DNA from: Verrucomicrobiaceae bacterium
Lineage (GTDB): Bacteria > Pseudomonadota > Gammaproteobacteria > Pseudomonadales > CAMLJR01
Length of the DNA stretch: 64,000 nt
NCBI GenBank assembly: GCA_028293825.1
Contig: JAQGNY010000009.1
Span: 1 to 64,000 of the forward strand
Reading direction: 5' to 3'
Below are positions 40,848 to 48,851 of this stretch, piece after piece. Below the pieces are notes generated by a model, which saw only the letters and a list, made by a program, of their open reading frames with translations, did no database searches and was not told the DNA's origin. Each line of letters opens with the position of its first letter. Position 1 is the first letter of the stretch. The position numbers and the translations under genes were made by a program.

Positions 40848-42902
40848 TTAACCTTCACTGCCGCGATTGCGAACCAGGTTGCGCAGTGTGAATCGCGCCG
40901 GCGACAACGCTTGAATCAACTCGCGCGGCAGCGGGCGCGCTGCGCCGGTAATTTGCGCGGCCAACAGCTCGGCGCAAAGCGGTGTCGACGTCAGCCCGCG
41001 CGAGCCGTGGCCGACATTGACGTATAAATTCTCGCGATAGATACCGGGCTCGATCAGTGCGGCATTGGCATCTTTCGCCAGTTTGCCGAAGCGCGTGCGC
41101 ATCGCAGCGTCATCGGCGACCGGCCCCACCAACGGCAGATAATCGGGCGTGGTGCAGCGCTGGCCGACGCGGCCGCCCAAGTTGGCGCAATCGATAATGT
41201 CCGGCGAATCCATTAATAGATCGGGGAGCGCACGCTGCAAGCTGCGCAGATTGGCGCGGTGATCGTCGCTGCGCAGTTGTGGATAGGCATCGCGTTGATC
41301 GAACGTTGCGCCGATGGTTATGCCTGTCTGCGCGCTAACTAGATAACCCTCGTGACAAATAACGCAGCGCGGTTGTGTGCGCAGCATCGATGCGGGCAAT
41401 TCGGTAATTTGGCCTCGTATCGGTTTCAACGGCAAATCAGCGCTAGTGAGTAGCGCGGTAGCTTCGTTAGCGGTGGCAATCACCACGATATCGGCGTGCA
41501 GCGCGCCGGAGCTGGTTTCGAGCTGCCAATATGGGCTTTCGCGCGTTAATGCCTGCACCGTGCAATGGGTTTTTACCTCGATCAACGGATGCTCGGCGAG
41601 ATAGCGACAGATTGCGGCGGGTGCCAGCCAGCCGGCGCGCGAAAACCACAGCGCCGCATTCGGCACGGCGCATTGCGCGATTGCGCTGGCTTGTTCGGCA
41701 TCGACAAATTGCACCCAGTCTTCTTGCGCCGAAAATGCCGTGCGCAATTGCTGCCACTGCGTATCGCTGTCGGCCAGCTGCAACACACCGCTGAAATCGC
41801 CGAGATTTTCTGCATCGATCGGCAGCGTGCGATAAAAATCGAGCGCGTGGCTGTAACTCGCAAGCGTGAAGCGATTCAGCAAACCGGCCTGCGGCGACAG
41901 CGTCGTGTACAACACGCCGTGCGGATTTCCCGACGCGCCGGCAGCCAGCGTAGCGGCCTGTTCGAGCAGCGTGACCGGCCAACCGCGCGTCGCTAATGCG
42001 TGCGCGGTGTGAGCGCCGGCCAAGCCGCCACCGACGATAACCACGCGGCGTGTTTGTGTCTCAGCGGGCGGCGCATACGCCGAGTATTCGATGGCGCGCA
42101 GCTTCGTCGGCGCCGTCGGCGGCAAGGTATCGAAATCGCCGCGCAGCATTTGTCGTTTCGCGCCGAAGCCGGTAATTTTTTCGATAACAAACCCCGCCTG
42201 ACGCATGCCGCGTTTAACGATGCCGGCAACGGTGAACGTCGCGAAAGTGCTGTCGCGTCGGCTCAACCGACCGATGTGCAGAAATAATTCGTCGCTCCAC
42301 ATCGCCGGATTTTTCGCGGGTGCGAAACCATCGAGAAACCACGCGTCGATGTGAAAACCATTCGGCAACTCTGGCGCGGCGCTGTCGTGCAATTGTGAAA
42401 ACGCAGTTGCTGCATCATCGAACAACAACTGCAATTCGACGCGATCGGAAAAGCGGCGGTGATGAAAGCCCGGCAGCAGCGGCGGATAGCTCGAAATGAC
42501 CTGTGCGCTCATTTCGGAAAACTGCGGCCACTGTTGCTGTGCGCGCTGAAAATTAACGCGTGCGAGCGGATAGCGTTCGACTGAAATAAATAATAAACGC
42601 CAACTCGGTGGTGCAACGCGACGCCATAATTCCCACGCACAGAAAAAATTGAGTCCGGTACCGAAACCGGTTTCGCCGATGGTGAAGACACCGCTGACAT
42701 GCGGGTCCAATGCGCGCCAGCGTTGTTCAAGGCGATTTTGCTGCAGAAAAACATACTGCGTTTCGGCCAACCCATCGCCGCGCGAAAAATAAATATCGCC
42801 GAATAATTCGGATGTGGGTTCGCCGCTGTCGCCCCAGCTGATATGGGCCGGCGTGATTTGCCAGGGATTATTGCGGTCGGCGTCGGGCATCGGTGGGCGC
42901 AT
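40848..42902 (-). CDS. mnmC: Bifunctional tRNA mnm5s2U modification enzyme MnmC
   Basis: A 684-residue protein that makes the last steps of mnm5s2U at wobble position 34. The C-terminal FAD-dependent domain removes the carboxymethyl group and the N-terminal domain methylates with SAM. The N-terminal part (about 1-240) has ETGFGTGLNFF and the DAWFLDGFAPAKNPAMW motif of MnmD. The C-terminal oxidoreductase starts with RRVVIVGGGLAGAHTAHAL (FAD GxGxxG) and ends with GSRGLTSTPL. Both domains look intact. The exact start is uncertain between two close methionines. Confidence 0.95.
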   Translation of the reverse strand: MRPPMPDADRNNPWQITPAHISWGDSGEPTSELFGDIYFSRGDGLAETQYVFLQQNRLEQRWRALDPHVSGVFTIGETGFGTGLNFFCAWELWRRVAPPSWRLLFISVERYPLARVNFQRAQQQWPQFSEMSAQVISSYPPLLPGFHHRRFSDRVELQLLFDDAATAFSQLHDSAAPELPNGFHIDAWFLDGFAPAKNPAMWSDELFLHIGRLSRRDSTFATFTVAGIVKRGMRQAGFVIEKITGFGAKRQMLRGDFDTLPPTAPTKLRAIEYSAYAPPAETQTRRVVIVGGGLAGAHTAHALATRGWPVTLLEQAATLAAGASGNPHGVLYTTLSPQAGLLNRFTLASYSHALDFYRTLPIDAENLGDFSGVLQLADSDTQWQQLRTAFSAQEDWVQFVDAEQASAIAQCAVPNAALWFSRAGWLAPAAICRYLAEHPLIEVKTHCTVQALTRESPYWQLETSSGALHADIVVIATANEATALLTSADLPLKPIRGQITELPASMLRTQPRCVICHEGYLVSAQTGITIGATFDQRDAYPQLRSDDHRANLRSLQRALPDLLMDSPDIIDCANLGGRVGQRCTTPDYLPLVGPVADDAAMRTRFGKLAKDANAALIEPGIYRENLYVNVGHGSRGLTSTPLCAELLAAQITGAARPLPRELIQALSPARFTLRNLVRNRGSEG

Positions 42903-43029: not shown

Positions 43030-44640
43030 ATGTCCGCTGTTTTTCGCATTTTATTGCTTTGCCTGTTCTTCAATCTCTCCGCATTTGCGGCGGATGGCGT
43101 TGATGTCGCCGGACAGCGAATTAGCATTGCGTTGAAAAGCGAGCCGCCAACGCTCAATAGCCTGCAGGCCAGCGATGTGGTGAGTAGTTTTATTCTCAAT
43201 CATGTCATGGAGGGATTACTGCAATACAACATGCGCAATGAACTGGTTGCGGGTGTTGCGGAGCGTTGGCAATTGCGCGAAGACGGTGCGACGTTCTGGT
43301 TGCGCCGCAACGCGTTGTGGAGCGATGGTAAACCTGTTACAGCGCGAGATTTTGTTTTCGCGTGGCGCCAAGTGTTAATTCCTGCGACAGCGAGCCGTTA
43401 CGCGTTTATCTTGTTTCCGATCAAAAATGCCGAGCGCGTAAATCGTGGCGAATTGCCTGCCGATCAGCTCGGCGTAAAAGCGATTGGCGATTATCAAATC
43501 GACGTCCAGTTTGAACGCCCGTGCCCTTATTTTCTTGGCCTGACGGCATTCGCGACCTATAACCCACTGCGCGAAGATTTTGTGTTGGCGCGTGGCGGTA
43601 GTTACGCGGCCGACGCAAAAGACATGCTATTTAACGGTCCATTTTTGCTGACGCGTTGGGACCACGGCGCGCATCTCACCCTGCAAAAAAATAAAAAATA
43701 TTGGAATGCCGCCGCTATTCGTTTGCAAGAAATCGATATTCCCTACATCACTGCGGACGCGAGCGCTGTTTTCAATTTGTTTCAAGAGGGCAGCATCGCG
43801 ATGGCGCAGCTCGATACGGCAACATTGCAAGAGGCCAGCGCGCGTGGCGCACCGATGCAATTATTCGATACTGGCGCTTTATATTTTCTCGAATTTAATT
43901 TGCAGCCGAATCGAATGACCGCCAACGTGCATTTGCGGCGCGCCATTCAAGCGATATTCGCACAGGAACAGCTAACCGATAAAGTCATCGGCATGCCCGG
44001 AAATCTACCGACATTTTCTTTGTTTCCGCGCTCGGTAAAAGGTATTAACGGTAATTTTCGCGATGAATTTCCACCCACACCGCCGCCGCGCGGCATGGCA
44101 ATAGCAAAACAGGAATTAGCTCTGGCGCAGAGCGAGCTGGGTATTAAACAATGGCCGCCGCTGGTGTTGTTGGCATCGGTGAGCGCAACGGGGAAGCGAC
44201 AGGCCGAGTATTTTCAACAGTTGCTACAAACCGGTTTGAACATTCCTGTGCGTATCGATAATCAGATTTTTAAACTCACCATTGAAAAAATGAACCGCGG
44301 TGATTTCGATATTGCGATGGCGGGGTGGTTACCTGATTTTGACGATGCCATTACATTTGGCGATCTACTGGCGAGCTGGAACGAAAACAATCGCGGGCGC
44401 TATAACAGCCCGCGTTACGACGCGTTGGTAAATGCCGCCAATGCAACTGGCGATCAATCAAAGCGCATGTTGTATTTTTCAGAAATGCAAAAAATGTTAA
44501 TCGACGATGTACCAATATTGCCAACTTTTGAAAGCACAGAAATTTATGCGATTAATCCCGAGCTGCACGGAGTTTCGCGCGCTTTATTCGGCGGCGATCT
44601 CGATTTTCGTCATGCCTATGTAGAAGCGCTCGCGAAGTAA
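43030..44640 (+). CDS. oppA: Oligopeptide ABC transporter, substrate-binding protein
   Basis: A 536-residue periplasmic binding protein of family 5 (SBP_bac_5). The signal peptide is MSAVFRILLLCLFFNLSAFA. The mature part shows the typical start ISIALKSEPPTLNSLQASDV and the motif LVAGVAERWQLREDGATFWL. Further on are WSDGKPVTARDFVFAWRQ and the C-terminal MLIDDVPILPTF. It is not a lipoprotein: no cysteine is present at the signal end. It is the first gene of a five-gene transporter cluster. The true substrate (oligopeptide or other) cannot be told from sequence. Confidence 0.9.
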   Translation: MSAVFRILLLCLFFNLSAFAADGVDVAGQRISIALKSEPPTLNSLQASDVVSSFILNHVMEGLLQYNMRNELVAGVAERWQLREDGATFWLRRNALWSDGKPVTARDFVFAWRQVLIPATASRYAFILFPIKNAERVNRGELPADQLGVKAIGDYQIDVQFERPCPYFLGLTAFATYNPLREDFVLARGGSYAADAKDMLFNGPFLLTRWDHGAHLTLQKNKKYWNAAAIRLQEIDIPYITADASAVFNLFQEGSIAMAQLDTATLQEASARGAPMQLFDTGALYFLEFNLQPNRMTANVHLRRAIQAIFAQEQLTDKVIGMPGNLPTFSLFPRSVKGINGNFRDEFPPTPPPRGMAIAKQELALAQSELGIKQWPPLVLLASVSATGKRQAEYFQQLLQTGLNIPVRIDNQIFKLTIEKMNRGDFDIAMAGWLPDFDDAITFGDLLASWNENNRGRYNSPRYDALVNAANATGDQSKRMLYFSEMQKMLIDDVPILPTFESTEIYAINPELHGVSRALFGGDLDFRHAYVEALAK

Positions 44641-44699
44641 TAGATGATGAAAAATCACAGCGCACCATTGCGATTAATCGATATGAGAGCACAGAATTA

Positions 44700-45635
44700 A
44701 TGTGGCGCTATATTTTAAGACGCTTGCTCTCCGGCGTAGTCACCATTTGGTTTATCGCCACCGCGACTTTTTTTGCGATGCATTTTGTACCTGGCGATCC
44801 GCTCAGCAGCGAGCGCGCAATGTCGCCTGAGATTCGCAAAAATCTGCAGATAAAATACGGGCTCGATCAACCGTTAGCGCATCAGTACATTTTATTTTTA
44901 CGCAATATGCTGCACGGCGATTTCGGTATTTCTTTCACGCAACAGAATCGGCGCGTCAACGATATTATTCGCGAACATTTTCCGGTGTCCGCATTGCTCG
45001 GTATCGTTTCATTAATTATCGCCACTGTCGGTGCCGTGCTGTGGGGTGCGGTTTCGGCGCATTACCGCAGACGCTGGCCGGATTCGGCGATTATGTTGCT
45101 CGTTATCGTTGCGGTGTCACTGCCCGGGTTTGTCACCGCCGCCTTAGTGCAATGGCTGGTGCTCGCATTAAATCGGCAGTGGGGATTTACCGTATTGCCA
45201 GTGGCAGGGTGGGGCACGTGGAAGCATTTACTGCTGCCGGCGTGGGTGCTAGGCCTCAGTACAATGGCGTACATGACGCGCTTAATGCGCGCGAGTTTGC
45301 TAGAAGTAGCGCACGCGGATTATTTGCGTACCGCCCGCGCCAAAGGTTTAAGCGCGCATCGAATTTTTTTCCGCCATCAATTGCGTAATGCGTTGCTGCC
45401 GGTTATTACCGTGCTCGGCCCTGCCATCGCGGCGATTACCACTGGCGGCTTTGTGGTGGAGTTGATGTTCGCAATTCCCGGCCTCGGTCGCTATTTTGTC
45501 GAAGCGGTGCAGCAGCTCGATTACACCGTGATTATGGGCACGACAGTTTTTTACGGCGCGTTTCTGGTGTTGATGGTGCTGTTGGTCGATATCATTTACG
45601 GCGTGGTCGACCCGCGTATTCGAGTCGCGCGATGA
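44700..45635 (+). CDS. oppB: Oligopeptide ABC transporter permease, OppB type
   Basis: A 311-residue inner-membrane permease with six expected membrane helices. The first is WRYILRRLLSGVVTIWFIA, and the conserved periplasmic motif HFVPGDPL follows. The EAA-type loop (YLRTARAKGLSAHRIFFRHQ and then LRNALLP) contacts the ATPases. The stop overlaps the start of the next permease gene by four bases (ATGA), so translation is coupled. Confidence 0.93.
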   Translation: MWRYILRRLLSGVVTIWFIATATFFAMHFVPGDPLSSERAMSPEIRKNLQIKYGLDQPLAHQYILFLRNMLHGDFGISFTQQNRRVNDIIREHFPVSALLGIVSLIIATVGAVLWGAVSAHYRRRWPDSAIMLLVIVAVSLPGFVTAALVQWLVLALNRQWGFTVLPVAGWGTWKHLLLPAWVLGLSTMAYMTRLMRASLLEVAHADYLRTARAKGLSAHRIFFRHQLRNALLPVITVLGPAIAAITTGGFVVELMFAIPGLGRYFVEAVQQLDYTVIMGTTVFYGAFLVLMVLLVDIIYGVVDPRIRVAR

Positions 45636-47032
45636 ACACTCAGTCGAATATTCCCGCCGAATTATTTGAACCCGCTGTAGCGCGGCCGACACTGGACGTG
45701 GCTGTCGCTTCAGCATTGCCGTTCTGGCCGGCGTTGCGACGTCAATTGCGTAGCGATGCACGCGCCATAGTTTCATTGTTAGTTATTTTTATTTTAGTGA
45801 TTGCCGCTGTGGCGGGGCGCGGGTTGTGGCCGCTCGACCCGGCGCAGCAAATATTGGGTTCGGCCGCACAGGGTTCCATGCGCGCGCAACGCGCGTTAGT
45901 CGTGCGTACTACGATCGATGAACCGATTATCGAGTTATCGCCAGCTGCTTTATTGCCAGCGCCGCAATTAGCTTCGCCGCAGCATCTGCAAGTGCTCGAA
46001 GCTACTACCGAACGCGTGAAATTTCGTTGGAAGCTGGTTGCCGGCGCGCATTCTTATCGCATTTATCGGAACACACATGCACCGCGCGATCATGCCGATT
46101 TGGGCTTGCCGCTGGGGTTTACCACCGCGCGCGGACAGGTGAGTTTCAGCGATGGTTTATTGCTGCGCCCGCGCGATTATTTTTACAGCGTGGTGGCCAG
46201 CGATGGTGCGGACGAAGCCAAAACATTTGCGACGCTGACCATAACGCCGCAGCCCGCGATTGGTTTGCTAGAAGCGCAACTGCAAGGATTAGTCGCAGCG
46301 GATGTGCACGATGTAACGTCAGCGCCGCAAACTGTTTTATTACCGGCGCATCCCCTCGGTACCGATCATTTAGGGCGCGATTTACTGGCGCGATTATTAC
46401 AGGGTGCGCGTGTGTCGCTATTTATCGCGATCAGTGCCGCATTGTTATACGTCGCGTTGGGATTAGTCTACGGCGCGGTGGCAGGCTTTGCCGGCGGCGC
46501 AATCGATCACTGGATGATGCGCATCGCTGACTTTGTTATCGCGCTGCCATTTCTTTTATTTATGATTTTATTGCGTATCGCATTCGGTATTGCGCCCGGC
46601 GAAAGCGGTGTGATGCCATTGGTTATCGCGCTGGTATTGTTGAGCTGGCCCTCGACCGCACGGCTGGTGCGCGGCCAGGTTTTGCAATTGCGCGAAGAGC
46701 CTTACATCTCTGCGGCGCAACTCGCCGGTGCCGGCAATTTATATATTATTTTTCGCCATCTACTGCCGAATATGCTCGGCGTGATTTTAGTGACGCTCGC
46801 GTTCGCGATTCCCAATGCGATTTTTACCGAGGCATTTCTGTCGTTTATCGGCATGGGCGTAACGCCACCCGCGACATCGTGGGGCGCGATGAGCAGCGAT
46901 GGCGTGCAGAATTTATTGATCCATCCCACTGAGTTAATTTGGCCGGCGCTGTGTATTAGCGTCACTGTGCTCGCGTTTAATTTATTGGGCGATGCCTTGC
47001 GTGACGCGCTGGACATGAAGGTGCAGCGATGA
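45632..47032 (+). CDS. oppC: Oligopeptide ABC transporter permease, OppC type, with FN3-like insert
   Basis: A 466-residue permease, clearly longer than usual OppC (about 300). After the first membrane helix (about 44-63) there is a roughly 180-residue periplasmic segment. Within it residues 112-207 look like a fibronectin type III domain: a proline start, LQVLEATTERVKFRW, the SYRIYRN strand, and the YFYSVVASDGADE strand near the end. The permease core resumes at HPLGTDHLGRDLLARLLQGA and contains the EAA loop SAAQLAGAGNLYIIFRHLLP. Both ends overlap neighbours by four bases, so the insert is inside a normal operon gene and not a frameshift product. Confidence 0.88.
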   Translation: MNTQSNIPAELFEPAVARPTLDVAVASALPFWPALRRQLRSDARAIVSLLVIFILVIAAVAGRGLWPLDPAQQILGSAAQGSMRAQRALVVRTTIDEPIIELSPAALLPAPQLASPQHLQVLEATTERVKFRWKLVAGAHSYRIYRNTHAPRDHADLGLPLGFTTARGQVSFSDGLLLRPRDYFYSVVASDGADEAKTFATLTITPQPAIGLLEAQLQGLVAADVHDVTSAPQTVLLPAHPLGTDHLGRDLLARLLQGARVSLFIAISAALLYVALGLVYGAVAGFAGGAIDHWMMRIADFVIALPFLLFMILLRIAFGIAPGESGVMPLVIALVLLSWPSTARLVRGQVLQLREEPYISAAQLAGAGNLYIIFRHLLPNMLGVILVTLAFAIPNAIFTEAFLSFIGMGVTPPATSWGAMSSDGVQNLLIHPTELIWPALCISVTVLAFNLLGDALRDALDMKVQR

Positions 47033-48072
47033 GCGAGTCCGCGTCCTCAGTCGAATTAAGTAACCAGGCAACGGCAGCGGCGAATCAATTGCTGCGGATC
47101 GATCAATTAACGGTTCATATCAACACGCCGCACGGTGTTGTGCAGGCGTTGCGCGGTATCGATTTGCAATTGCGCGCCGGCGAAGCACTGGCATTGGTCG
47201 GTGAATCGGGCAGCGGCAAATCGATTACTGCGTTGAGCATTAGCGGTTTACTACCGGAAAGTGCTGCGATGGTTGGTGGCGATATTTTTTTCGCGCAGCA
47301 ACGCGTCAATGAATTCGATCAACGCGCGTGGAATAAATTGCGCGGTTCGCGAATCGGCATGGTGTTTCAAAACCCGATGTCGTCTTTCAATCCGTCGATG
47401 CGCGTTGGCGATCAAATTGCAGAAGTATTACGCGCGCATCGCGATTTATCGAAAACCGCAGCGCGGCTGCGCTCAGTGCAATTGCTCGAACGCATGCGCA
47501 TTGCAGATGCGGCGGCGCGTGCGCACCAATATCCGTTCGAATTTTCCGGCGGCATGTTGCAGCGCGCGATGATTGCCATGGCGGTGGCGTGCGAACCGCA
47601 ATTATTAATTGCCGATGAGCCGACCACTGCGCTCGATGTCACGGTGCAGGCCGAAGTGCTCGATTTACTGCGCGAATTGCGCCGCGATAGTGGCATGGCG
47701 TTGTTATTGATCACGCACGATCTTGGTATCGTCGCGCAAATTGCCGATCGTGTTGCGGTGATGTACGCCGGCCAAATTATCGAGCAGGGCCCGGTCGGCG
47801 CGCTATTACATGCACCGGCGCATCCGTATACCGCTGCATTGCAGGCAGCGGCACCAACTATTGCGCAGGATTTTTTACAGGCGATTCCCGGCACGCCGCC
47901 GGATTTAACCAATCCGCCGTCAGGCTGCGGTTTTTATGCGCGCTGCAAACACGCGATGCGTATTTGCATGGATGGAGCGGTTCCCAATTTCGAATTAAAT
48001 GCGCAGCACGCGAGTCGCTGTTGGTTGTTGCATCCGCAATGCAAAAATTCAGAGCCGTCTGTGGATGTCTAG
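47029..48072 (+). CDS. oppD: Oligopeptide ABC transporter ATPase, OppD type
   Basis: A 347-residue ATPase. Walker A is GESGSGKS and the signature FSGGMLQRAMIAMA. Walker B is LLIADEPTTALD. The C-terminal oligopeptide domain has the conserved PSGCGFYARCKHAMRIC with its cysteine pattern. It overlaps the OppC-type gene by four bases. It works as a heterodimer with the following OppF-type ATPase to drive import. Confidence 0.94.
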   Translation: MSESASSVELSNQATAAANQLLRIDQLTVHINTPHGVVQALRGIDLQLRAGEALALVGESGSGKSITALSISGLLPESAAMVGGDIFFAQQRVNEFDQRAWNKLRGSRIGMVFQNPMSSFNPSMRVGDQIAEVLRAHRDLSKTAARLRSVQLLERMRIADAAARAHQYPFEFSGGMLQRAMIAMAVACEPQLLIADEPTTALDVTVQAEVLDLLRELRRDSGMALLLITHDLGIVAQIADRVAVMYAGQIIEQGPVGALLHAPAHPYTAALQAAAPTIAQDFLQAIPGTPPDLTNPPSGCGFYARCKHAMRICMDGAVPNFELNAQHASRCWLLHPQCKNSEPSVDV

Positions 48073-48074
48073 CG

Positions 48075-48851
48075 ATGAGTGATTGTTTGCTGCGCGTAGA
48101 GAATCTCGGCAAAGAATTTTTATTGCCGGGACGCGAAAGCTTTTGGGCGGCACGTGCAATTAATTTCGAGCTGCGCAGTGGCGAAGCATTTGGCTTGGTG
48201 GGCGAGAGCGGTTCCGGCAAATCGACACTGGGTCGTTTATTGATTGGTCTGCATGAAAAATCGGAAGGTGCCGTTTATTTTCGCGGCGAGCGCTTGCCGC
48301 AGCGTTATAGGCAACGCGACTTTAAAAATTACGCAAAGCACATGCAGATGGTTTTTCAAGATCCGTATGCGACGTTGAATCCACGCTTCACCATCGGCAG
48401 CAGTATTGCAGAGCCGCTGCGGTTGCGCGGTGAGCGCGATAATTTAGCGCAACGGGTGGCGCAGATGCTGGAGCGCGTTGGTTTGGCGCCGGCGATGGGC
48501 AATCGCTATCCGCATGAATTTTCCGGGGGGCAGCGCCAGCGTATCGGTATCGCGCGTGCATTAATCGCCGAGCCAGCGCTATTGGTTTGCGACGAGCCGG
48601 TATCGGCGCTCGACGTATCGGTGCAGGCTCAAATTATTAATTTGTTGCGCGAATTGCAGCGTGAAATGCAGTTGACGTTAATTTTTATTTCGCACGATCT
48701 CGCGGTGGTGCAACATTTGTGCGATCGCATTGCGGTAATGGAGAAGGGGCGTATTGTCGAACTGGCGGATAAGCAAACGCTGTTTAATACGCCGCAACAT
48801 GCGTTCACGCAAAAATTATTAGCCGCGCGTTATCAGGGTATTAATAATTAA
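48075..48851 (+). CDS. oppF: Oligopeptide ABC transporter ATPase, OppF type, short
   Basis: A 258-residue ATPase. Walker A is GESGSGKS, the Q-loop is MVFQDPYATLNPR, the signature FSGGQRQRIGIARAL, and Walker B ALLVCDEPVSALD. It ends soon after the H-loop and the AFTQKLLAARY segment. It therefore lacks the C-terminal oligopeptide-transporter domain that most OppF proteins have, including its cysteine motif. The start is three bases after the OppD stop; the open frame upstream to 47964 is only overlap with OppD. Confidence 0.9.
   Translation: MSDCLLRVENLGKEFLLPGRESFWAARAINFELRSGEAFGLVGESGSGKSTLGRLLIGLHEKSEGAVYFRGERLPQRYRQRDFKNYAKHMQMVFQDPYATLNPRFTIGSSIAEPLRLRGERDNLAQRVAQMLERVGLAPAMGNRYPHEFSGGQRQRIGIARALIAEPALLVCDEPVSALDVSVQAQIINLLRELQREMQLTLIFISHDLAVVQHLCDRIAVMEKGRIVELADKQTLFNTPQHAFTQKLLAARYQGINN

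Follow-up and report, generated by a model that had tools for sequence, protein, structure and literature searches.

Opp and Dpp importers are well studied; in our judgement, it is less well understood what the C-type permease adds to the recruitment of the binding protein. The window, as we call the 64,000-nucleotide stretch of DNA analysed here, raises this question through an OppC permease with an extra domain in its first loop. What is this domain, how widely is it found, and what might it do? We identify it as a fibronectin type III (FN3) domain, a compact and separable docking candidate that makes the role of the C-type permease testable.

The window encodes a complete peptide importer, oppA-oppB-oppC-oppD-oppF, at 43030-48851 on the forward strand (Table 1). 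E. coli OppABCDF and DppABCDF have the same five-gene set and the same permease core, and the E. coli OppA, OppB and OppC core are 27, 39 and 42% identical to those of the window. By eye, the N-terminus of OppA resembles a signal peptide; the best NCBIfam match of OppB is Opp3B (325 bits, below the cut-off of 480). The start of oppF was placed at an ATG inside the listed open reading frame 47964-48851.

Table 1. Genes of the opp operon and parts of OppC, with positions in the window.
Feature	Position	Strand	Description and evidence
oppA	43030..44640	+	periplasmic peptide-binding protein, 536 aa; Pfam SBP_bac_5, E 1.6e-56
oppB	44700..45635	+	partner permease, 311 aa; Pfam BPD_transp_1, E 1.5e-37
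oppC with inserted domain	45632..47032	+	466 aa; BPD_transp_1 at 277-465, E 1.5e-29
TM1 of OppC, residues about 43-66	45758..45829	+	hydropathy; helix 43-65 in the AlphaFold2 model
enlarged loop of OppC, residues 67-239	45830..46348	+	173 aa; probably periplasmic, after E. coli OppC
FN3 domain, residues about 117-210	45980..46261	+	AlphaFold2, Foldseek, VIA-align 2, profile match to 3mpc_A
C-terminal linker, residues 211-239	46262..46348	+	leads back to the core; low-confidence short helix at 212-221 in the model
permease core, residues 240-466	46349..47029	+	begins HPLGTDHLGRD; conserved; model and identity
oppD	47029..48072	+	ATPase with C-terminal oligo_HPY; Pfam ABC_tran, oligo_HPY
oppF	48075..48851	+	ATPase, shortened, without C-terminal cysteine region; Pfam ABC_tran

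The BPD_transp_1 domain of OppC lies far above its Pfam cut-off (103.5 vs 26.4 bits), the OppC_N match at residues 34-76 just misses its own (22.9 vs 23.9 bits), and no Pfam domain was found between the two. The nearest NCBIfam models are the Firmicutes-type Opp3 and Opp4 permeases, all below cut-off (Opp3C 255.7 vs 450 bits, Opp4C 248.6 vs 350, OppC 199.8 vs 433). Since these equivalog cut-offs are missed while the core fits and the gene sits in an oppABCDF operon, we assign the protein to the OppC family as a permease, and not as an equivalog of any of the named models. The core is 62-74% identical to that of 13 relatives and matches E. coli OppC (8z21_B; phmmer E 3.2e-55, with a good match only from residue 230 on) and E. 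coli DppC (8z1v_B; E 3.1e-44); in its best segment, the core of Firmicutes-type OppCs is up to 53% identical to that of the window. An N-terminal PSL..WQD.W.RL motif is common to the relatives of the window and the Firmicutes-type OppCs, and is weak in the window itself.

An earlier note, made from the letters of the DNA, had described this permease as about 160 residues longer than usual, with the extra part between the first membrane helix and the HPLGTDHLGRD core. Both statements hold: the protein is 164 residues longer than E. coli OppC (466 vs 302 aa), TM1 ends at about residue 66 and HPLGTD starts at residue 240. The first loop of E. coli OppC is described as periplasmic and 43 residues long (PMC9192764), as against about 173 residues with the FN3 domain in the window, where by analogy it probably also faces the periplasm. 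Among 66 operons with an FN3-bearing OppC, the window included, the enlarged loop measures 143-203 residues (median 166). The linkers that flank the domain are roughly 50 and 30 residues long, and residues 77-113 of the first are poorly conserved (mean identity 14.6%).

The note had further read the segment 45965-46252 (residues 112-207) as FN3-like and proposed a structure prediction and an FN3 domain search. In an AlphaFold2 model of the whole protein, the core was good (pLDDT means per ten residues 81-97 from residue 241 to 460, and 71 at the end) and the loop was poor (ten-residue blocks at 32-59 across residues 91-230); in the alignment behind this model, most rows were unrelated in the insert. 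Modelling was then repeated on the domain alone, from an alignment of two rows, the window and a gammaproteobacterial metagenome-assembled genome, a relative that makes it probable that the window is gammaproteobacterial too. Residues 106-212 gave a seven-strand sandwich (strands 120-125, 129-133, 141-147, 159-164, 170-174, 183-190 and 200-204) with a pLDDT of 77.2 (five models, 60.7-77.2) and a pTM of 0.70, the first 12 residues lying under 50; the modelled domain, at about 117-210, nearly coincides with the segment that the note had marked out. In a VIA-align 2 comparison, the model superimposes on the fibronectin fragment 6xay_B with Z 10.7 and an rmsd of 2.1 over 83 residues; ranked first, with Z 10.8 over 87 residues, is an entry whose title calls it a predicted model, and Z is at least 8 for 455 of the 995 chains. 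The best Foldseek matches are also FN3 domains, with a best E of 1.1e-3 and none of 1632 at 0.001 or below; at least three of the 50 rows are not FN3, namely the PKD domain 1b4r, the phage baseplate entry 9f4a and the interleukin receptor-nanobody entry 7s2s.

The domain search gave a divided answer. Pfam fn3 (PF00041) has no match in the window insert, which does not reach the gathering score, and matches 2 of 14 family members weakly (best E 0.049). A profile of the family domains (14 rows), run against the PDB with hmmsearch, has as its best match the Fn3-like protein 3mpc_A (E 0.0017), the other five matches lying at E 0.11 or worse. The FN3 modules of 3mpc_A and 2w1n (Clostridium perfringens GH84C) have the same fold as the insert, and 3mpc has the same sequence pattern as well; they sit in other proteins, whereas that of the window lies inside a permease loop. 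In Pfam as a whole, no match of the insert is significant, the lowest E being 0.031 for an unrelated family; GH85_C, an endohexosaminidase domain, matches six of the 14 members weakly (lowest E 0.063). The insert is thus not labelled by the Pfam and NCBIfam models used. As the Pfam fn3 score is not reached, we claim the FN3 fold and kinship and not the Pfam label, and on these terms we are close to certain that the OppC insert is an FN3 domain.

The pattern of conservation fits this identification. The core of the FN3 fold is marked by a tryptophan in strand B, a tyrosine in strand C and a tyrosine in strand F, and the insert has these fold-core residues in W133, Y142, Y183 and Y185. W133, R146, G158, D174 and Y185 are identical in all 66 aligned operons, Y183 is found in 64, and Y142 in 57 (F in five, H in four). 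Most of the invariant residues look like fold positions rather than an interface, and across the 66 operons we noticed no conserved surface patch beyond the GxP stretch at 158-160. A disordered or unconserved insert is ruled out by the conservation in 66 operons and the predicted sandwich, and a frameshift or fusion artefact by the recurrence of the same architecture in 61 genomes.

Where the insert occurs was a further point raised in the note. A full-length profile finds FN3-bearing OppC in at least 61 of 390 genomes of the order, the window included (E 2.0e-161 or better), spread over 14 families (f1, f9, f12, f14, f16, f18, f22, f23, f24, f28, f30, f31, f39 and f44); at most 4 first-pass candidates were scored per genome here, 3 in the search for OppA and 9 in those of the class and the phylum, so that all of these counts are lower bounds. 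The insert is no general feature of OppC: matches ranking after the 61 cover the core only, at 265.9 bits and below, and in a subset of 56 genomes, 13 have the FN3-bearing form, 12 a core-only match (E 2.5e-51 or better) and none both. Among 369 genomes of the class, the insert profile (1e-5) matches at least 11, with only the window's match in an OppC, which rules out for this sample that the architecture is common in the class. At 21 other loci of 10 of these genomes, it matches FN3-like stretches of other proteins, whose reading frames are 418-4201 codons long; tblastn found no OppC core there within the short flanks. Pfam, run on 10 of the 21 stretches, matched fn3 at E<=0.001 in three, one of them above the cut-off, and nothing in five, and GH85_C also matched some of them; like the insert, most of these stretches miss the fn3 score.

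The FN3-bearing operons form one lineage. In 21 other FN3 operons, identity to the window is 43-57% for OppA (20 operons), 66-76% for OppB and 63-75% for the OppC core, as against 22-32%, 33-49% and 41-52% in 38 other Opp systems. Trees of the OppC core and of OppB (60 rows each) place 22 FN3 operons on one side of a 100/100 branch, and a tree of OppB plus OppC again groups 27 of them with 100/100 support; these are the FN3 operons that the trees took in, the remaining ones being left out. The gene order A-B-C-D-F is kept in 20 of 21 context loci; the exception, L179, has no adjacent oppA, and its contig stops short of oppF. Every intact member of the lineage found among the 390 genomes of the order carries FN3.

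Beyond the order, 398 genomes of the phylum yielded at least four more FN3-bearing OppCs. All four belong to family f244 in a different class, for which 48 genomes were searched. The OppB plus OppC tree includes these four operons (L242-L245), which fall together (100/99) inside the lineage of the order, within a fork supported at 80/95. This nested position suggests that f244 may have acquired its FN3-type oppBCDF by horizontal transfer. Carriage on plasmids found no support: at E 1e-3, the window insert matches none of 72,556 plasmid records. The FN3-bearing OppC is thus real, conserved and retained in one lineage of Opp systems. The note knew of no description of this architecture for Opp permeases, in keeping with which the open-licence literature holds no description of an FN3-bearing OppC among the matches listed; the accessible part of a paper that models every ABC system of B. 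subtilis with AlphaFold, Opp and App among them, uses neither the word fibronectin nor Ig-like (PMC11466899).

Does the binding protein follow the insert, as the note had asked? A cognate OppA (E<=1e-80) is present in at least 63 of the 390 genomes, namely in all 61 with an FN3-bearing OppC and in two others. In one of these (G059), the contig ends after oppB and before oppC; in the other (G301), oppC has decayed by frameshifts with FN3 remnants still visible. The OppA of the window itself belongs, by identity, to the FN3-linked lineage. Because the cognate OppA occurs in all 61 genomes and in only two explained others, the FN3-bearing OppC and its OppA type go together. OppA lies within the fetched stretch at 58 of 66 FN3 operon loci; two contigs (L221, L226) end inside oppB, with OppA elsewhere, and for the remaining six loci an OppA of 46-54% identity is encoded at another place in the genome. 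It is separate from oppBCDF in G051, G185, G755, G770 and G798 (on the same contig at a gap of about 3.6 kb in G770), and in G899, where OppA is elsewhere in the genome, its linkage to oppBCDF is undecided. The decayed oppC (L255:6258-7600, one genome) has broken frames and readable FN3 remnants 3' of an intact oppA-oppB, and the four f244 loci carry FN3-type oppBCDF with OppA elsewhere. Such co-retention is expected of a cognate pair with or without an FN3 contact.

We therefore compared the distances of FN3 with those of the other components in a mirror-tree test on 63 of the 66 operons (the truncated L221, L226 and L245 were dropped). The partial correlations are 0.21 for OppA, 0.19 for OppB, 0.13 for OppD, 0.05 for the OppC core and -0.06 for OppF, with taxon-permutation p values of 0.0005, 0.0015, 0.02, 0.19 and 0.80. 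The control, the N-terminal linker against the cytoplasmic OppD, also gives 0.21, which puts the FN3 values near noise; the pattern leans to the periplasmic partners at a size close to that noise. With a median distance of 1.39, FN3 changes faster than OppA (0.79) or OppB (0.42). Charge complementarity between FN3 and OppA was considered and is ruled out, as their net charges do not correlate across 58 operons (Spearman 0.15, p 0.26).

We propose that the FN3 domain may dock OppA, working like the P2 loop of MalF, and give this reading a probability of about 0.45. FN3 would have been acquired in the TM1-TM2 loop of OppC and would stand in the periplasm on its two linkers; when OppA arrives, it would touch and hold the lobe lying over OppC. 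This grip would complement the scoop with which the B-type subunit enters the cleft of the binding protein, and the outcome would be a higher local concentration or a longer dwell time of OppA. The binding protein of E. coli DppABCDF is described as a cap over the two permeases, and DppB as forming, in its periplasmic region past TM1, a scoop that reaches into the cleft of DppA (PMC12136057). The FN3 domain lies in the TM1-TM2 region of the C-type permease that corresponds to this scoop region, and the shared TM1-side location supports docking, which co-retention with one OppA type also makes plausible. MalF P2, in turn, has an Ig-like fold. It is described as a large periplasmic region, part of which contacts MalE in MalFGK2 (PMC3150292), and simulations show it moving around MalE as a rigid unit (PMC8134467). 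The likeness lies in a large periplasmic insert in a permease of a type I importer, and would extend to an FN3-OppA contact; the difference is that P2 is the second periplasmic loop of MalF, a permease of another family.

The fast evolution of FN3 and the resemblance of its invariant residues to fold positions weaken docking, as does the fact that OppA would be kept with its cognate OppBC in the presence or absence of a contact to FN3; E. coli OppABCDF works without an FN3 domain. FN3 could instead be a structural or regulatory appendage on the periplasmic loops or scoop of OppB that tunes opening or assembly and leaves OppA ungripped. OppB is highly conserved in the lineage, and its partial correlation with FN3 is about equal to that of OppA; that statistic is just as weak, though, and the poorly conserved linkers may point to a mobile domain, so that we consider this account unlikely. 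Also improbable in our view is binding to some other periplasmic partner, such as peptidoglycan, an envelope protein, or a peptide or polymer substrate. The note had suggested contact with peptidoglycan or recognition of a polymer, and the analysis brought up no evidence for either. The linkers might allow an outward reach, the FN3-like repeats of the class occur in other reading frames of the sizes given above, and GH85_C is weakly matched; these GH85_C matches extend to the FN3-like stretches, however, and may reflect a shared fold only, while the insert lacks any significant Pfam match and any conserved patch beyond the GxP stretch.

That FN3 is a tolerated passenger, which entered a single time, does no harm in a permissive loop and has persisted by descent, seems very unlikely to us. 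Its retention in at least 61 sampled genomes of 14 families with the fold residues intact speaks against it, and so does the lack of any intact FN3-free member in the sample, since a useless loop of 170 residues should have vanished somewhere. Its rapid evolution would suit a passenger, and so would the unlike inserts that clostridial and other OppCs carry at the same site. An E. coli strain with a chromosomally doubled OppC loop was built, and the doubled 43-residue loop is described as recruiting SecA during synthesis (PMC9192764), which indicates that the export machinery copes with longer loops. Docking of OppA remains the reading that we prefer. A wider version, in which a proteobacterial Opp lineage would have evolved an FN3 arm that tethers OppA as a second, independent MalF-P2-like solution, and clostridial OppC inserts would do likewise with another domain, is one that we put forward only as doubtful.

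How exceptional is a long loop at this site? We scanned contigs with six short peptides and took the best 80 of 199 relatives, counting the residues before the core from the first possible start. At most 98 residues precede the core in 49, 104-142 in 14, and 149-244 in 16 without FN3; the FN3 member among them, the metagenome-assembled genome used for modelling (L032), has 225. The statement of the earlier note that OppC-type permeases normally have a short loop here is thus borne out by E. coli, with 43 residues (PMC9192764), and by the 49, and fails for the 16. In several Firmicutes-type or clostridial OppCs, the same site is filled by a long insert that looks unrelated to FN3, and by eye the inserts of 15 of the 16 long-loop relatives look unlike FN3. 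Pfam gave no fn3 and no meaningful match on seven clostridial-type inserts. A kinship of the clostridial loops with FN3 is thereby rejected at the level of sequence, from 15 proteins by eye and seven by Pfam. Unlike long inserts at the TM1-TM2 site argue that the site is permissive or has been repeatedly exploited; long segments have entered this loop on more than one occasion in evolution. The long inserts include L038:5989-7341, L042, L049, L060 and L063, and shorter ones occupy the same site in L056, L061, L064, L065, L069, L071, L078, L088, L090 and L096.

Two other features of the operons were observed. Adjoining opp in the window is a divergent gene at 40848-42902 that by eye we name mnmC-like; a divergent MnmC beside opp is also seen in 5 of 21 context loci, the flanks of the others perhaps being too short, and the neighbourhood is perhaps an old synteny. 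The second concerns the ATPases. The window OppF matches oligo_HPY only over positions 1-24 of 65, below the Pfam cut-off, and stops without the C-terminal cysteine region, which in E. coli DppF is described as binding a [4Fe-4S] cluster (PMC12136057). Across the FN3 operons, the C-terminal region of OppF has no cysteine in 6 of 63 and four or more in 57 of 63, and OppD has four or more in all 63.
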